DNA of 64,000 bases. Origin: Natronosalvus vescus (GTDB taxonomy: Archaea > Halobacteriota > Halobacteria > Halobacteriales > Natrialbaceae). The stretch lies in assembly GCF_023973145.1 (NCBI RefSeq), contig NZ_CP099546.1, forward strand, positions 3,720,001-3,784,000. Reading direction: 5' to 3'. A program made the translations under genes and the position numbers. The notes under the pieces were generated by a model. That model saw nothing but the letters and a program-made list of their open reading frames with translations. It did not search any database and was not told the origin of the DNA. Position 1 is the stretch's first letter. Each line of letters opens with the position of its first letter. Shown here one piece after another: positions 5,938-25,608 of the stretch.

Positions 5938-7959
5938 TCATCGCCCCCTGGACGCGAGAAACCGCTCGTACTCGTTATGCAGCCCGCTCGAGCGACGGCA
6001 TCGATCGAGCAACTCACCGAACACCTCACCGAGTACCAAGTTCGAGTCGCGAGTGCTAGGGTCGAAACCCGTCGGATTCTCGGCGACTACGAGGACGTCG
6101 TGGCGCTCTGTCACTCGAGTGAGCCCTCGTGGGTTCGATCCTGCCTCAAGACGCTCGCAGGGGAGTTCCCGGACAGACGGATTCCGACCATCGTCGTGCC
6201 ACCGAGTGGGAGTGGAAGTGAGCGGTTGGCAACCATCACGGTGCGAGCGGGCGGCGACGACTACGTCTCACCGACGGCTCTCGAGGAGTTACCAGAACGG
6301 ATAGACTCGTTATGGGCAGGAGTTGGCCAGACCGAACCGAGAGAGACAAAACCGGCCACAGACACCTTGGTCGATCTCCTGTCGACGACGTTCCCGGACG
6401 AAGTGTTCGTCCTCGGGGCAGATGGTACGTACCTGGATACGGAAGTGCGTCCGGATTCCGCCGATCTGTACACCGTCAGGCCCGACGAATTCGTCGGTCG
6501 GACGTTGTGGGATGCGTTTTCCGACCGGGAAGCCGATCGATTTCACGACCACATACAGCACGTTCTCGAGAGCAGAGAGATTGCACACGTGGAGTACGAC
6601 GTCGAGACGACCGAAGGCACCCGTCAGTATCTGGGTCGCGTCGTCCCCATCGGTTCCTCGACATACGATCAGGAGGCCGTGTTGTGGCTCGCACGGGATA
6701 CAACCGAACTCGAGAGCCGGGAAGCGGCACTCCAGCAACGACGAGAGCAACTCGAGTTGCTCAACCGGGTTAATGCGGTCGTCAGGCGGGTAATCAAGAC
6801 CCTCGTGGAAGCGCCCACCCAGTCGGCAGTCGAGGAGGAAGCCTGCGAGCTACTCGTGGCCTCCGATCTGTACTGTGGGTCGTGGATTTCCCGCCCCACC
6901 GGCGATGGCAGTGTCGTGTACCAGACCGGCTGTGGTGACGTGTCGTCATACCTCGAAGCGATCAAAGCGATCGATTACGACGCCGACGACGACCGGCCGA
7001 TTATCCATGCACTCCAGGAGAATACCATCCACTCGAGCACCGAGTTGCAGTCGATGCCGGAGATGCCGCCCGACCTCGCGGAAGCTGCTCGCGAACACGA
7101 TATCAAATCAGCGATCGCGGTGCCGCTGTCACACGGCGATAGCGTCTACGGCGTGTTGACGGTGCTGGCTCGTCGGGAGGACGCATTCGGCTCCCGAGAA
7201 GAGGAGGCGTTTCGATTGCTCGGGGAAACGATCGGATTCGCGATCAATGCGATCAAGAACCGACGGCTGTTGTTCGCCGACGCCGTGACGGTACTCGAGT
7301 TCCGCATCGAGGGAGGGAACTCCTTTTCGTTCGATCTCTCGACGAAGTACGACTGTCAGTGTGCCCTCGAGTGGTCGGGGACGACGGCGAACGGACGCAC
7401 CTACCAGTACGTCACGATCGATGGCGTCGACGGTCAGACGGTGTACGAGGAGGCGACAGCGCACGAGACCGTCGAGGAATGTCGGCTCGTCCACGACGGC
7501 GAGAACGAGGCAACGATCGAGATCCGACTCGCGGAATCCGCGGTTCGAACGCTCAAAGGGTACGGTGCAACGATTCGTGACGTCACCGTCGATGACGGCG
7601 TCGGACACATCACGGTCGAATTCTCACGCGAAACTGACACACGGGCGATCGTCGAAGCGCTACAGCGCGTCTACGAGGAGGCCGAACTCGTCGCGAAACG
7701 GGAGGTCGACCGACCAGTGACGACGGCGAGCGAACGGCGCAACCGGATCGCAGATCGATTGACCGAACGACAGCTCACCGCCCTTCGGTTGGCGTACTAC
7801 GGCGGATATTTCGACTGGCCACGCGGCAGTACCGGTGAAGACATCGCCGAATCGATGGGCATCTCGCCACCCACGATGCACCAGCACCTGCGGCGTGGGC
7901 TCGAGGAGATTCTGGGGGACTTCTTCGAGGTCGGGCCAGAACCAACGTCCACGAAGTGA
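5935..7959 (+). CDS. PAS/GAF/Bat-type HTH-10 transcriptional regulator
   Basis: A 674-residue cytoplasmic sensor-regulator of the bacterio-opsin activator type. Residues ~1-125 look like a receiver-type fold, ~130-265 a PAS domain (EVFVLGADGTYLDTE onwards), ~290-440 a GAF domain (AIAVPLSHGDSVYGVLTV), then the Bat-associated domain, ending with the HTH-10 segment LTERQLTALRLAYYGGYFDW near 610. Family members sense light, oxygen or redox and act on nearby promoters. The receiver-like part lacks an obvious Asp phosphoacceptor pair (LVLVMQ instead), so phosphorylation is doubtful. The ligand and targets are unknown. It converges on hutH with a 24-nt gap. The upstream 28-bp repeat could be its operator or leader. 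Confidence 0.85.
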   Translation: MSSPPGREKPLVLVMQPARATASIEQLTEHLTEYQVRVASARVETRRILGDYEDVVALCHSSEPSWVRSCLKTLAGEFPDRRIPTIVVPPSGSGSERLATITVRAGGDDYVSPTALEELPERIDSLWAGVGQTEPRETKPATDTLVDLLSTTFPDEVFVLGADGTYLDTEVRPDSADLYTVRPDEFVGRTLWDAFSDREADRFHDHIQHVLESREIAHVEYDVETTEGTRQYLGRVVPIGSSTYDQEAVLWLARDTTELESREAALQQRREQLELLNRVNAVVRRVIKTLVEAPTQSAVEEEACELLVASDLYCGSWISRPTGDGSVVYQTGCGDVSSYLEAIKAIDYDADDDRPIIHALQENTIHSSTELQSMPEMPPDLAEAAREHDIKSAIAVPLSHGDSVYGVLTVLARREDAFGSREEEAFRLLGETIGFAINAIKNRRLLFADAVTVLEFRIEGGNSFSFDLSTKYDCQCALEWSGTTANGRTYQYVTIDGVDGQTVYEEATAHETVEECRLVHDGENEATIEIRLAESAVRTLKGYGATIRDVTVDDGVGHITVEFSRETDTRAIVEALQRVYEEAELVAKREVDRPVTTASERRNRIADRLTERQLTALRLAYYGGYFDWPRGSTGEDIAESMGISPPTMHQHLRRGLEEILGDFFEVGPEPTSTK

Positions 7960-20272: not shown

Positions 20273-20290
20273 GCTAAAATATATTTTAGC
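20273..20290. promoter_or_regulatory. 18-bp perfect palindrome covering the proteasome operon TATA region
   Basis: GCTAAAATATATTTTAGC is its own reverse complement. It lies 37 nt before the ATG at 20327 and is the only AT-rich block there, so it is probably both the TATA element and a dimeric-repressor operator. Confidence 0.65.
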
Positions 20291-20326
20291 TTTCACTTAT
20301 CCGCCGATGGAGCCTGTGTTGAGTCG

Positions 20327-21112
20327 ATGCACCCCAATCGACAGGAACAACGTCCAATCGAGAGTGGGCTCGAGTTCGGAACGGAATTCGCTCGAGGAAC
20401 CCCCACGACCATAGATCAGCATCGCACCGACAACCCGGAACCCGTCGTCTCGACCGGAACGACGATCGTCGGCGTGGCAGGCGACGAAAGTGTCGTTCTC
20501 GCCGGTGACACGCGTGCCAGTCTCGGCGGCCGATTCGTCACCAATCAGGACGCCCGGAAAGTCGAACGAATCGGGGAACGTGCCGCGGTCGGCTTCACCG
20601 GCAGCGTCAGTTCGGCACAGGCACTCCTCAGACAGCTTCGGGCCGAATCACGTCTGTACGAACACCGTCACAATCGCTCCCCATCCACCTCGACGCTGTC
20701 GTCGATGGCGGGATCGCTCCTCCGGAGCGGTCGCTTCCCGATGCTCGAGCTCGTCCTCGTCGGGATGGACGACCAGCCAGCGGTGTACAGCGTCGGCCGT
20801 GGTGGCTCGATCCTCGACTCGCCGTTCGCCGCCGCTGGCAGCGGGATGCAGGTCGCCTATGGGGCACTCGAGGATGCCTTCCGCGACGACCTCTCGATGG
20901 CCGAAACGCGCTCGATCGTCGCCAGTGCCGTCGCCGCCGCGACCGAACGGGACACCGCGAGCGGCGACGGGATGACCGTCGTGACGATTCAGGGTGGCGA
21001 CGAGATATCCCTCGAGGAGTCGGGATACGACTCGATCGAATCGGCGCTCGAGACGTGTTCGCACGATAGCGGCCCCGCGAACCACCGCTCTGAATCGGAG
21101 GGTAAGCGATGA
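20327..21112 (+). CDS. psmB: proteasome beta subunit, divergent paralogue
   Basis: Catalytic subunit of the 20S proteasome. A 261-residue protein with a 44-residue propeptide ending VVSTG; the next residues TTIVGVAGDE give the mature N-terminal Thr nucleophile. Asp17 of the mature chain is present (VVLAGDTRAS) and the catalytic Lys is present (DARKVE) but displaced one residue by an insertion in GGRFVTNQ. Start ATG 20327 (MHPNRQEQ) was chosen over 20258 because it follows the palindromic promoter. It overlaps the alpha gene by ATGA. Most haloarchaea encode alpha and beta apart, so a beta-alpha operon suggests an accessory, separately controlled proteasome. Confidence 0.9.
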   Translation: MHPNRQEQRPIESGLEFGTEFARGTPTTIDQHRTDNPEPVVSTGTTIVGVAGDESVVLAGDTRASLGGRFVTNQDARKVERIGERAAVGFTGSVSSAQALLRQLRAESRLYEHRHNRSPSTSTLSSMAGSLLRSGRFPMLELVLVGMDDQPAVYSVGRGGSILDSPFAAAGSGMQVAYGALEDAFRDDLSMAETRSIVASAVAAATERDTASGDGMTVVTIQGGDEISLEESGYDSIESALETCSHDSGPANHRSESEGKR

Positions 21113-21876
21113 ACGGAAACGCCAGGCAGCAGGCCTACGACCGCGGCCACACCATCTTCTCGCCCGACGGGCGACTGTACCAGGTCGAGTACGCCAGGCA
21201 GGCGGTCGAACGCGGTGCGCCGAGCGTCGGCATCCGCACGGACGACGGCATCGTTCTGGCCGCCCGGAAACGGATTCGATCGCCACTGCTCGAGGCCGAT
21301 TCCATCGACAAGATTCACGCCGTCGACGACCACCTCGCTATCGCGTCGGCGGGCCACGCCGCCGACGCACACCGACTCGTCGATGAGGCTCGCCTCGCGA
21401 GTCAGCGCCATCGGCTCAGCTACGACGAACCAATCCCATTCGAGGCGCTCGCGGACGCGGTCGCCCGACACGTACAGGAACACACCCACGCCGGTGGATC
21501 GAGACCGTACGGTGCGGCGCTCCTCGTCGGCGGGATAGACGCAGCGCCACCGACCATCTCGTCCGAGGGGCCGACGCCTCGATTGTACGAAGTCGACCCG
21601 AGCGGGACCCGATACGGCTGGCACGGGGTCGCCATCGGCGACGGCTCGACGGGATGTCGGGAGATTCTCGAGTCGTCCCTCCCGGAATCGACGTCGACAG
21701 GTGAAGACGAACTGCCGCTGTCAATCGACGACGTGATCGGTGTCGCGTTCGACGCGCTCGAGGCCGCCAGCGACGAGGCGATTACCGTGGATACGGCCGA
21801 ATGTTCACTACTCCGAACTGACGGTGAACGGCCAGAACACCTCTCGAGCGAACGCCTCGCTGGGTACCTCGCCTGA
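21109..21876 (+). CDS. psmA: proteasome alpha subunit, divergent paralogue
   Basis: Gate and ring-forming subunit. A 255-residue protein with the alpha signature AYDRGHTIFSPDGRLYQVEYARQAVERG; the Lys used by PAN-type ATPases to dock appears conserved (SIDKIHAVDDHLAIASAGH). Compared with the main haloarchaeal alpha (from memory), it has His for Ile/Thr after DRG and a different middle part (HRLSYDEPIPFEALADAVARHVQEHTHAG). It overlaps psmB by 4 nt, so the two are translated together and probably assemble with one another; mixing with the housekeeping subunits is possible. No regulatory ATPase is nearby. Confidence 0.9.
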   Translation: MNGNARQQAYDRGHTIFSPDGRLYQVEYARQAVERGAPSVGIRTDDGIVLAARKRIRSPLLEADSIDKIHAVDDHLAIASAGHAADAHRLVDEARLASQRHRLSYDEPIPFEALADAVARHVQEHTHAGGSRPYGAALLVGGIDAAPPTISSEGPTPRLYEVDPSGTRYGWHGVAIGDGSTGCREILESSLPESTSTGEDELPLSIDDVIGVAFDALEAASDEAITVDTAECSLLRTDGERPEHLSSERLAGYLA

Positions 21877-21901: not shown

Positions 21902-23113
21902 TCAGTCCCGGTCGATCGCTCCCGATTCGTCGGAAGCGCTTCGCTGGGTTTCGACGACCTGACTGGTGCCGTCGACGTACAGCGCCAGCACGTCACCTGC
22001 TCGTTCGGTTACGACGCGAACGCAGATCGGCTCCTTCGAGAGAACCGTTTCGGCCCACTCGGGCCCGACGTTCCACAGGGGCCGGTTGCGGATGTCGATC
22101 CCGTGATCGTGGTAAAACGAGATGACGCTCGGATGCTCGAGGATGGAGAGCGTGACGGGGCATCGGAGTTCGTGTTGGCACTGATTGCAGGTGTGAACCA
22201 CCTGTGGCGGCGTCTGGCTGTGCTCGCCCGCGGTCTCGCCCCCAGTTGAACCGGCTCCCGATTCCGTCGAGAGAGTCGATACCCGACTCGCGACGTCGCC
22301 GCCACACTCCGGACAGACGCCGTCACTCATCGTCGCGAGCCGATATCGATGATGTCGGTCGAAGGCTGCGGGAAGGTCGTCGCCGTGGCTCTCGAGCCCG
22401 GACGGTGGAAACTGCAGTCGGAGAACCTGCCGGTCACAGTCTGGGCAGGTGATCGTCACGACGTTGTCCACGGTCTGTGCCTCGAGCGTCGGTAGTTCGT
22501 GTTCGTGTTCTCGTTCGTCTTCGGGTTCGAATGCGGATCCCGATTCGGCAGATACGGATGAAGATGTGGACGCAGATGATCGATCACGGGTACAGAACGG
22601 GCACGGGTCGTCGAGTTCGATCGGCGGACTGTCGATTCGCCTGGTGTACGCCCCCGTCTGGATTGCCCGGGCGATTTTCAGTCCGGCGTAGGTAAACTCG
22701 TAGCCCGGTTCTCGGCGGCCGTCATCATCGCCGTCCGAATCGTCGGTAGCGTCGACCTTCCGGAGAAACGGGCCAACGAGTTTCTCGAGATGGTAAGCGA
22801 ACCCGGCCGAGGTGTCGGCCGAGCTGGCCGCGAAGAGGTCGGCGAACGTCTGCCTCGAGAGGCCGTCGTCCTCGAGCGCGTGCAACTGGTTCTCGAGGAT
22901 TTCCGCTCGGATCTCGTGTCCGACGGCCTGGAATGCGCTCGAGGAGTCAATGATCTCCGTCCGCTCGAGGGAAACGTCGCTCGAGTCGCCACCGGTGCGC
23001 TCGTCGCTCGAGTCGCCACTCGTGCTCCTGTCGCGATTGGTACCCGCCCGCGATCGTTCACCAGTGGCTGACGTAGCGAACTGGCCGTCGCCGTCCGCGT
23101 CGGACTGGGTCAC
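21902..23113 (-). CDS. winged-helix regulator with multiple zinc knuckles
   Basis: A 403-residue acidic protein of an ArsR-like haloarchaeal family. The N-terminal wHTH runs from about FQAVGHEIRAEILENQL to the YHLEKLVGPFLRK recognition part, with EFTYAGLKIARAIQTGAY behind it. The C-terminal two thirds holds four CxxC pairs (CPFC, CPDC, CPECG, CNQCQHE), probably zinc ribbons. GTG 23113 (VTQSDADGDG) was chosen because the frame upstream to 23368 is not halophile-like and would overlap the next gene. It lies 61 nt behind the Bax1 gene on the same strand. Ligand and targets unknown. Confidence 0.75.
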   Translation of the reverse strand: MTQSDADGDGQFATSATGERSRAGTNRDRSTSGDSSDERTGGDSSDVSLERTEIIDSSSAFQAVGHEIRAEILENQLHALEDDGLSRQTFADLFAASSADTSAGFAYHLEKLVGPFLRKVDATDDSDGDDDGRREPGYEFTYAGLKIARAIQTGAYTRRIDSPPIELDDPCPFCTRDRSSASTSSSVSAESGSAFEPEDEREHEHELPTLEAQTVDNVVTITCPDCDRQVLRLQFPPSGLESHGDDLPAAFDRHHRYRLATMSDGVCPECGGDVASRVSTLSTESGAGSTGGETAGEHSQTPPQVVHTCNQCQHELRCPVTLSILEHPSVISFYHDHGIDIRNRPLWNVGPEWAETVLSKEPICVRVVTERAGDVLALYVDGTSQVVETQRSASDESGAIDRD

Positions 23114-23174: not shown

Positions 23175-24680
23175 TCACGACCGTTCCCGCAAAACTCCAC
23201 CGCCGAGTCCTTCCCACTCGACGCGATAGCCCAGGCGCGAAAGTGCTGCACTCGATTCTTCGATGCCGACGTTCTCGAGGACGGACTCGGCCGCCGACAG
23301 CGAACAGCCGGCCTCAAGTTCGTCCGCGAGGCGCTCGAGCACCGCGGGCCTGACGAGGGTACGTCCAACGCGTTCGTGTACGGGAAAGTGAACCGATTCG
23401 ATGGCGTCTTCGCTGACGCCGTGGCTTCCGGCGACGTCGGCGAGCGTGATCACGTCCGCCTCCGGAACCAGTTCAGCTGGGAGGGTCGAGACGCTCGCTT
23501 CAACCAGGTCGGCCTCGTACTCCCGGAGGACATCGGCGACGTCCTTGATGCGCACCGTTCCCCGGTACGGAATCGCCCGGTGGTCGCGGGCTTCGATCGC
23601 TTCCCCGGCACCGAGCGATTCGTCGACGGCGACAAGCATGTCTACGTCCTCGAGTTCCGCGAGTTGAGCGAGCTTCTTCTCGACGTATTCGGGCGTCCAG
23701 AAGCCCATAATTTCGAAGTACACCCGAAAGTCGGCGTGGCGATAGTCGAAGGCGAAATCGGGAATCATCACCCGCGTTCCCGTCGCGAGTGGCTCGGGTT
23801 CCCGGCGCAGTTCCCACTCGAGGTCGAGTCCCCCGAACCGGGCGGCGAAGTCGGCTTCGACGTCGCTGTCGAAAGAGACCTCGGCTATCGGCTCGGCGTC
23901 CGGGACGCGAATCGGATCGTCGTCCGACAGCGAGAGCGTTCGCTCCGTTCCCCGGTCGTCGATCGTCGCCTCGAGCGACCACTCCCTCGCGTTCACGAGC
24001 GTCCGAAGGAGGCGAGCGAATCCCGTCCCGTAGCGTCTTGTCGCCCGAAAGAGGGTCGTCGGACCGGTGACGACGACTACCCGTCCCTCATCTGTTCGCT
24101 CGATCTCGTACATCAACCGGAGTCGTTTGACCGCCGACACGAGCGTCTTCGGATCGCCCGATCGGATTCGAACCTCGGTAGCGTCGAACAGCGCGGTCTG
24201 TGCCAGCGAGAGGTTGTAGCGTGCCAGGAGTTCGTCCGGCGTCCACGGGACGTCTATCTCGCGGAGTACCTGCCGCTCCTCGAGATCGGCGTACAGCGCC
24301 CCCTCGAGCGTTGGGACGGACAGGTCGAACCGATCGGCAGCCTGCTCGAGCGCTCGCTCTCGCTCGGTCTCGGTCACGACGCCGACGGTTTCGGCCGCCT
24401 CGAACACCCGCGGTCGAAGCCGTTCGGGATCGACTGGAGCGTCCGTTTCGAAGGCTGCCTCTCGCTCGAGCAACGTGGCGAAACCACGAACCAGTTTGAA
24501 GTCGGGAGCGTCGGCCTCGAGGTCAGCGAGCGCATCCTCGAGCGTTTCGCGTGTCTCGCCGGCGTGCCCCTGAAACGTCCCGATAACGCGGGCGGCGAGC
24601 GGCCGGTGCTCCCGGCGAGCGAACTGGGGATGGTAGCCGCCGCCGGCCCTCGAGACGCGAAGCAGTTCCTTGCGCAGCAT
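23175..24680 (-). CDS. bax1: DUF790 family nuclease, Bax1-like
   Basis: A 501-residue protein starting MLRKELLRVSRAGGGYHPQF, matching the archaeal DUF790/Bax1 family, which in other archaea binds the XPB helicase and cuts DNA bubbles in nucleotide excision repair. The C-terminal PD-(D/E)XK-like nuclease part is visible as VMIPDFAFDYRHADFRVYFEIMGFWTPEYVEKKL, with the acidic/Lys pattern expected. The start was placed at ATG 24680; frames further upstream are rich in Arg and Pro. XPB is usually the neighbour, but none is found here. Downstream is the zinc HTH regulator, possibly co-transcribed. Confidence 0.85.
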   Translation of the reverse strand: MLRKELLRVSRAGGGYHPQFARREHRPLAARVIGTFQGHAGETRETLEDALADLEADAPDFKLVRGFATLLEREAAFETDAPVDPERLRPRVFEAAETVGVVTETERERALEQAADRFDLSVPTLEGALYADLEERQVLREIDVPWTPDELLARYNLSLAQTALFDATEVRIRSGDPKTLVSAVKRLRLMYEIERTDEGRVVVVTGPTTLFRATRRYGTGFARLLRTLVNAREWSLEATIDDRGTERTLSLSDDDPIRVPDAEPIAEVSFDSDVEADFAARFGGLDLEWELRREPEPLATGTRVMIPDFAFDYRHADFRVYFEIMGFWTPEYVEKKLAQLAELEDVDMLVAVDESLGAGEAIEARDHRAIPYRGTVRIKDVADVLREYEADLVEASVSTLPAELVPEADVITLADVAGSHGVSEDAIESVHFPVHERVGRTLVRPAVLERLADELEAGCSLSAAESVLENVGIEESSAALSRLGYRVEWEGLGGGVLRERS

Positions 24681-24981
24681 CCGATCGGTTCTCGGGGTGC
24701 TGACGGCAAAAGTCGTCCGCTCGAGGGGCCGATTCGGGTCTGGTGCTGAGATTCGTTCCCAGGGACGACGTAGAATCTGGGAGGCACGTCCCCAGCCGGA
24801 AACCCACACATGGCCAACACCAAACCCAAAACGTTTCACTTGCGCGTGACGTCCATTTTGGTAGCATGTCACGCCGAGTGAGTCGTCGCGTCCGAACGCC
24901 AGTTCTCAACCTGCGGGGCCGCTCGCGGTCGCCAGTAGACCGAACCGTTGTCTCCGACTCCCGTGTGAGGTGGATCTCGCT

Positions 24982-25608
24982 ATGAGGCCGACTCACATCG
25001 ATGCGATCGTCGACCTCGCCTACGGGGCGTTGATTATTCTCTCGGTCGTGTTGATCGCGAGGCTCGACACGAACATTGGTATCGCGTTCGGGGTCGGGGT
25101 CTTCGCATCCTATGTCATCCACGTCGTCTGGAAGATGGCGCGGTTCGACCCCGAGTGGATGACTCGAGTCGTCGAGGAAACTGTCGGCGAGACCGTCGAG
25201 GAGACGGTCGAGAAGGAGGTCGGCCCACGGGTCGAACAGACGGTCAGCGAAACCGTCGAGAAGGAAGTTAGCCCGAAGGTCGAACAGACGGTCAGCGAAA
25301 CCGTCGAGAAAGAGGTTGGCCCGAAGGTCGAACAGACGGTCAGCGAAACCGTCGAGAAAGAGGTTGGTCCGAAGGTCGAACAGACGGTCAGCGAAACCGT
25401 CGAAGAATCGGTGACGAAACAGGTTCAGGAGGTGCAGTCACAGGTCGAATCGGTCGAAGAACGCGTCGACCGCCGACCCCGAGAGGATCAGGTCGAGGCC
25501 TTGATCGAGGAGTCAGTCGAGAGCAATCAGGAGAACGAAGGACGTGGCGGCGAGACCGACGACGGCGAGACCGACGACGGCGAGACTGACGACGACGAGT
25601 CCGAGTAG
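24982..25608 (+). CDS. membrane-anchored coiled-coil repeat protein
   Basis: A 208-residue protein. Residues ~8-55 hold two hydrophobic segments (LAYGALIILSVVLIARL and IGIAFGVGVFASYVIHVVW), followed by a long acidic heptad-like tail. Four nearly identical 16-residue units EKEVGPKVEQTVSETV stand in the middle, and three ETDDG units end the protein. ATG 24982 was chosen over GTG 24970 because the first hydrophobic helix starts just after it. Function unknown; it may be a filament or membrane-organising protein, topologically opposite to the giant coiled-coil protein at the window start (anchor first, rod second). Confidence 0.75.
   Translation: MRPTHIDAIVDLAYGALIILSVVLIARLDTNIGIAFGVGVFASYVIHVVWKMARFDPEWMTRVVEETVGETVEETVEKEVGPRVEQTVSETVEKEVSPKVEQTVSETVEKEVGPKVEQTVSETVEKEVGPKVEQTVSETVEESVTKQVQEVQSQVESVEERVDRRPREDQVEALIEESVESNQENEGRGGETDDGETDDGETDDDESE
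25210..25401 (+). repeat. four tandem 48-bp coding repeats
   Basis: Units 25210-25257, 25258-25305, 25306-25353, 25354-25401. Units 2-4 differ by only a few bases even at third positions, so the duplication is recent. Each encodes 16 residues. Confidence 0.9.

Follow-up and report, generated by a model that had tools for sequence, protein, structure and literature searches.

The reading that best accounts for this locus of Natronosalvus vescus, and one that we regard as likely, is that it encodes a conditional α2/β2 proteasome switched by a dedicated winged-helix (wHTH) regulator that would bind an 18-bp palindrome in front of the operon. The locus lies within a 64-kb stretch (64,000 nucleotides, hereafter the window) of a 3.84-Mb, one-contig genome. 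The features on which the argument draws are the following, in window positions:

20273–20290, no strand assigned: predicted operator of the accessory proteasome operon, the 18-bp perfect palindrome GCTAAAATATATTTTAGC (from sequence and conservation).
20297–20300, forward strand: predicted TATA box TTAT of a leaderless promoter, -30 to -27 from the ATG (from the AT profile of 71 promoters and the TTWT consensus, PMC4983044).
20327–21112, forward strand: psmB2, accessory 20S proteasome beta subunit, 261 aa (PF00227, E 6e-41; active-site residues; clade test).
20459–20461, forward strand: codon 45 of psmB2, the predicted Thr1 (from active-site residues).
21109–21876, forward strand: psmA2, accessory 20S proteasome alpha subunit, 255 aa (PF00227 and PF10584; clade support 0.92).
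21902–23113, reverse strand: predicted dedicated regulator, an N-terminal winged-helix DUF7347 followed by DUF7351 (PF24038, PF24042; synteny, co-occurrence and fold).
22787–22813, reverse strand: recognition helix TSAGFAYHL of the regulator (from the predicted fold and clade comparison).

The psmB2 and psmA2 genes overlap by 4 bp (ATGA), which hold the start of alpha and the stop of beta. A sequence-only reading of this DNA had described a beta gene followed by an overlapping alpha gene, both divergent, and this description was borne out. Both products belong to PF00227 and, as both fall under the NCBIfam equivalog cut-offs for the standard archaeal subunits, both are diverged. PsmB2 covers the full PF00227 profile (positions 1–189 of 189) and scores 171 bits against the equivalog arc_protsome_B (TIGR03634), under the curated cut-off of 224; judged by its sequence, it is a diverged paralog, other than the standard archaeal beta. 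PsmA2 carries the alpha N-terminal signature PF10584 (E 9e-12) in addition to PF00227 (E 7e-42), and it scores over the cut-off of NF003075 and under that of TIGR03633.

The active site of PsmB2 comprises TG-TTIVG, with the Thr directly after the Gly, Asp17 and a Lys at position 34. Thr1, Asp17 and the Lys are kept in 72–73 of the 73 accessory betas (Asp17 and Lys in 72/73). The sequence-only reading had correctly named these residues in the window beta, but the insertion before the Lys that it singled out is ordinary: the Lys stands at 34 instead of 33 owing to a one-residue insertion that is common to housekeeping betas. The extra residue occurs in the housekeeping beta of this genome (SLGGRFVSNKNVQK) and in most haloarchaeal betas, which rules it out as a special trait of the accessory subunit. 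We found no beta column fixed for a new specificity, as none differs at more than 80% in both groups. Accessory betas tend towards Phe at position 46, in the S1 region, though inconsistently. The separate substrate choice suggested in the sequence-only reading is conjectural.

Two unlinked housekeeping PF00227 genes are present elsewhere in the genome, an alpha (C1:3152864) and a beta (C1:3305225). The pair in the window is thus not the only set of proteasome genes, and its earlier interpretation as an accessory proteasome beside a housekeeping psmA/psmB pair holds. The window and housekeeping proteins share 39% identity for beta and 49% for alpha. In a phylogeny from which Haloferax volcanii PsmC itself was left out, the accessory alphas and the alpha2 (PsmC-type) subunits of Haloferax-like genomes formed one clade of 94 sequences with support 0.92, containing no alpha1.

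The palindrome has the half-sites GCTAAA and TTTAGC. Its length alone is no evidence of function, because about 0.45 perfect palindromes of at least 18 bp are expected in a window of such composition and another one, GAGCAACTCGAGTTGCTC, occurs at 6745–6762. Chance would therefore be a possible origin on length, but it is excluded by the conservation of the palindrome across genomes. With up to 3 mismatches allowed, GCTAAAATATATTTTAGC occurs only once, whether the window or the genome as a whole is searched. Its recurrence at other promoters, which the sequence-only reading had raised, was found at the accessory betas of other haloarchaea and nowhere else in this genome. Among 100 relatives, a close accessory beta was nearly always preceded by the identical 18-mer or by one with 1–3 changed positions, and the conserved 18-mer was usually extended to GCTAAAATATATTTTAGCTAACA.

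In several families of haloarchaea, most accessory betas have the palindrome in front of them. A scan of named genomes (including Natrialba, Natribaculum, Natronorubrum, Halopiger, Halobiforma and Halovivax, as well as Haladaptatus, Halorussus, Halosimplex, Halovenus, Halobacterium and others) found the motif at beta–alpha operons; solitary betas and alpha–beta pairs were without it (11–14 mismatches over 23 positions). In the trees, a single split set all 73 motif-bearing betas apart from the 58 motif-free betas, and the 88 operon alphas (88/88) likewise formed one split that excluded the other alphas. Pattern searches recovered the motif in 36 of 125 genomes at the family level (at most 1 mismatch, one copy in each genome) and in 79 of 391 genomes at the class level, with reversed-pattern controls near zero. 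Four of the matches (L160, L162, L174 and L328) had no beta nearby.

Two further elements were noted. At many Natrialbaceae promoters (L007–L018, L020 and L023), a conserved extra element, GTTCGTACGC, lies about 10 bp 5' of the palindrome; it is not present in this window. At L160 (~1501–1518), the perfect palindrome GCTAAACTATAGTTTAGC lies 46–49 nt upstream of a gene for a zinc-transporter-like solute-binding protein, where a related wHTH protein may have a further operator.

The conservation bears on another account, that the second operon is a redundant, constantly expressed duplicate whose site is conserved through recent common descent. The retained active-site residues (Asp17 and Lys, 72/73) would agree with this, as such a copy could just add capacity. 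We nevertheless consider a redundant duplicate very improbable: the window beta has the low identity to the housekeeping beta given above, the 18–23 bp site is conserved while the flanking DNA is not, and the presence of the module is patchy, with loss occurring as a unit.

To place the site within its promoter, we aligned 71 unique promoters on the ATG. The palindrome spans -54 to -37, with its centre 43–46 nt from the ATG in 61 of the 71. In the base composition, positions -51 to -38 form an AT peak that corresponds to the palindrome. A separate, TATA-like AT peak covers about -35 to -26, with TTWT near -30, and a small WW signal stands out at -11/-10. Haloarchaeal promoters have a TTWT TATA box and WW at -10, and in H. 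volcanii the leaderless class makes up 72% of coding transcripts (PMC4983044). The geometry indicates that the accessory beta promoter is leaderless, with the palindrome just upstream of the predicted BRE/TATA. In most operons GGAGG, a strong Shine-Dalgarno-like sequence, lies upstream of the alpha gene. The palindrome had previously been read as an operator covering the promoter and blocking TBP when bound; its operator-like character stands, as it is conserved at accessory promoters, but it lies off the predicted TATA box and next to the BRE, so that a block of TBP is conjectural and activation is equally possible.

In several lineages the centre of the palindrome has diverged and is no longer TATA-like (GCTAAAATCCGTTTTAGC, GCTAAAGAGCGTTTTAGC and GCTAAAGGCATCTTTAGC; also AAAATCCGTTTT), with the half-sites kept. 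Such drift is as expected of a site for a dimeric protein. Together with the promoter profile, it rules out the palindrome as the TATA box. The same observations speak to the possibility that the palindrome is core promoter only, a symmetric TATA/BRE conserved for strength with no specific regulator. The palindrome is indeed AT-rich, contains TATATA and lies at a constant distance from the start codon. However, the promoters have a distinct TATA peak at about -30 and WW at -10, the half-sites persist in the lineages without TATA in the centre, and neither the housekeeping alpha promoter of this genome nor the motif-free betas have the site. A mere core-promoter element is thus hardly credible.

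The candidate regulator gene (21902–23113, reverse strand), missed in the first reading, adjoins the operon just 3' of the alpha gene and is convergent with it. It likely starts at a GTG near 23113. Its open frame reaches 23368, overlapping the next gene, and the GTG start is favoured because the 3' end of that gene, which encodes a DUF790 protein (23175–24872, reverse strand) adjoining the regulator, overlaps the upstream part of the regulator frame. Further along the window, an ORF at 24970–25608 encodes a coiled-coil repeat protein, in which a short membrane segment is followed by repeated VEQTVSETVEKEVGPK heptad-like units.

In 10-kb flanks from many genera, all 27 loci examined have an HTH gene of this type beside the operon; clustering identified 26 of them, and the version at the remaining locus, L104, is short. 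Besides the two subunits it is the constant neighbour, while the other neighbours change. The 26 linked HTH proteins formed one clade against 24 paralogs with support 1.0. The recognition helix reads T(S/T)AGFAYHL in linked proteins and mostly (D/V)-S-x-(Q/N)-F-N-Y-H-L in the paralogs compared, which were the best-scoring ones and no random sample. Four CxxC pairs in the C-terminal DUF7351 part do not vary among the linked proteins. Paralogs within the DUF7351 family are numerous.

An AlphaFold2 model of the N-terminus of the regulator gave a confident winged helix with core pLDDT above 90. Domain-level searches, on which these fold matches rest as a full-length search was uninformative, returned PagR, CadC, MarR and SqrR at Z ~10, and Foldseek gave the same families. 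As modelled, the N-terminus is an ArsR/MarR-like wHTH fold, and in this domain the protein resembles the ArsR/SmtB and MarR repressors. It differs from them in its fused C-terminal DUF7351 with four CxxC pairs, and at the sequence level it matches no solved structure; a PDB sequence search found no close relative (best E 0.22).

We then compared the distribution of this protein with that of the motif. A profile of the HTH subfamily separated the 125 family genomes into 41 that scored at least 380 bits and a remainder that scored at most 256, and all 36 motif genomes were among the 41. Across 391 class genomes, 68 had both HTH and motif, 9 HTH only, 11 motif only and 303 neither, counts that ignore kinship. 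The operon is present in each of the nine HTH-only genomes, with a motif whose centre has diverged. Inspection of the motif-only genomes, G276 excepted, showed that four (G164, G182, G304 and G418) have the operon and a stand-alone wHTH of 131–159 aa with the same recognition helix, and that another four (G178, G208, G222 and G293) have no beta nearby. The match in G004 is an unrelated 10-bp hairpin and was rejected. Short stand-alone wHTH proteins with the same helix and without DUF7351 also occur at Halobacterium-like loci (L321, L322, L324, L326 and L104).

Another of the motif-only genomes, G042, preserves the operator and the start of the beta gene intact and fused to an alpha fragment (L182, G042:C32, ~4748). 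The body of the beta gene, most of the alpha gene and the HTH gene are lost, and no HTH gene is found nearby. From its sequence, this locus is a deletion scar, a natural record of joint loss of the module. A different state was seen at L181 (G033:C2, ~3186), where the operon has a decayed palindrome, GCTAAAATATCCTTGAGT, the regulator still adjoins it and the beta match had an internal stop in the search; by its sequence, this copy seems to be in decay.

The accessory beta of Haloferax-like genomes (family f5) adjoins the HTH gene and has no neighbouring alpha. The unlinked alpha2 carries GCTA(A/C)A-N6-TTTAGG in 8 of 8 listed HTH-positive cases. In the cases inspected at single-base level, the centre of the site is 45 nt from an upstream in-frame ATG. 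Among the HTH-negative genomes listed, 4 of 22 have the alpha2 site, all from one genus (g68) that also has HTH-positive members. As the site is kept at these four promoters, it could serve another factor, or the HTH gene could have been lost only recently.

These four genomes favour the possibility that the palindrome is the operator of another, unlinked regulator, and that the HTH protein encoded next to the operon has another target or is just a passenger. The many DUF7351 paralogs point the same way, as does the promoter of the regulator gene itself, which has no copy of the site; autoregulation is therefore not predicted. Against an unlinked regulator stand the synteny of the HTH gene in 27/27 loci while other neighbours change, its near-perfect co-occurrence with the motif (in counts that ignore kinship), the joint loss in the G042 deletion scar and the conservation of the recognition helix even in the truncated stand-alone wHTH proteins. 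We consider an unlinked regulator unlikely, and favour the adjoining wHTH protein.

From these comparisons we infer that the palindrome is regulatory, that the adjoining regulator binds it and that the accessory subunits assemble. In the proposed mechanism, psmB2 and psmA2 would be co-transcribed from one leaderless promoter. A homodimer of the regulator, with its DUF7347 wHTH and zinc-ribbon-like DUF7351, would bind the half-sites immediately 5' of the BRE/TATA and act on TFB/TBP recruitment there, setting α2/β2 expression. The subunits would assemble into a second core particle of their own or join the housekeeping subunits in theirs. A similar geometry is known from gas vesicle genes, where the GvpE UAS, a 20-nt site that is presumably bound by a dimer, directly adjoins the BRE with critical spacing (PMC4390858). 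The palindrome likewise abuts the BRE, although GvpE is a leucine-zipper-like protein and the candidate here is an ArsR/MarR-like wHTH. As the site abuts the BRE in the way that the site of the activator GvpE does, we lean slightly, by analogy, towards activation. A repressor covering the BRE would give the same geometry.

Accessory subunits and an extra proteasome operon are already known. Natrialba magadii, a related haloarchaeon, has an additional adjacent alpha/beta 20S operon like that of the window, Nmag_0514-0515, besides separate housekeeping genes; the passages concerned list the genes only, without an operator, a regulator or their conservation, all of which are described here (PMC3403918). 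Our literature searches returned no paper on an operator or a transcription factor of archaeal accessory proteasome subunits. What is new is the operator–regulator pair and its conservation.

Haloferax alpha2 offers a hint at the function of the accessory module. In H. volcanii, the alpha2 protein (PsmC, psmA2) rises in stationary phase, and its peptide GTSLFSPDGR (PMC2910475) is identical to the corresponding stretch in the alpha2 proteins analysed here. Hypochlorite tolerance is higher in cells whose only cores are α2–β (PMC6267482). H. volcanii has a single beta, whereas the genome of the window has a second beta too. By analogy with Haloferax alpha2, stationary phase or oxidative stress is a plausible inducing signal.

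A broader proposal, which we put forward tentatively and at somewhat less than even confidence, is that of a self-contained haloarchaeal gain-and-loss module in which a dedicated zinc-ribbon wHTH senses stress, acts through one class of operator on all accessory subunit genes, whether linked or unlinked, and swaps the core to α2/β2. In the mammalian immunoproteasome, the core particle takes alternative subunits that are separately controlled. The comparison is an analogy only. With one candidate regulator, one operator and clean sets of genomes with and without the module, the purpose of the second proteasome is directly testable. If true, a stress-driven α2/β2 swap of all or part of the 20S core would be an archaeal counterpart of the immunoproteasome switch.
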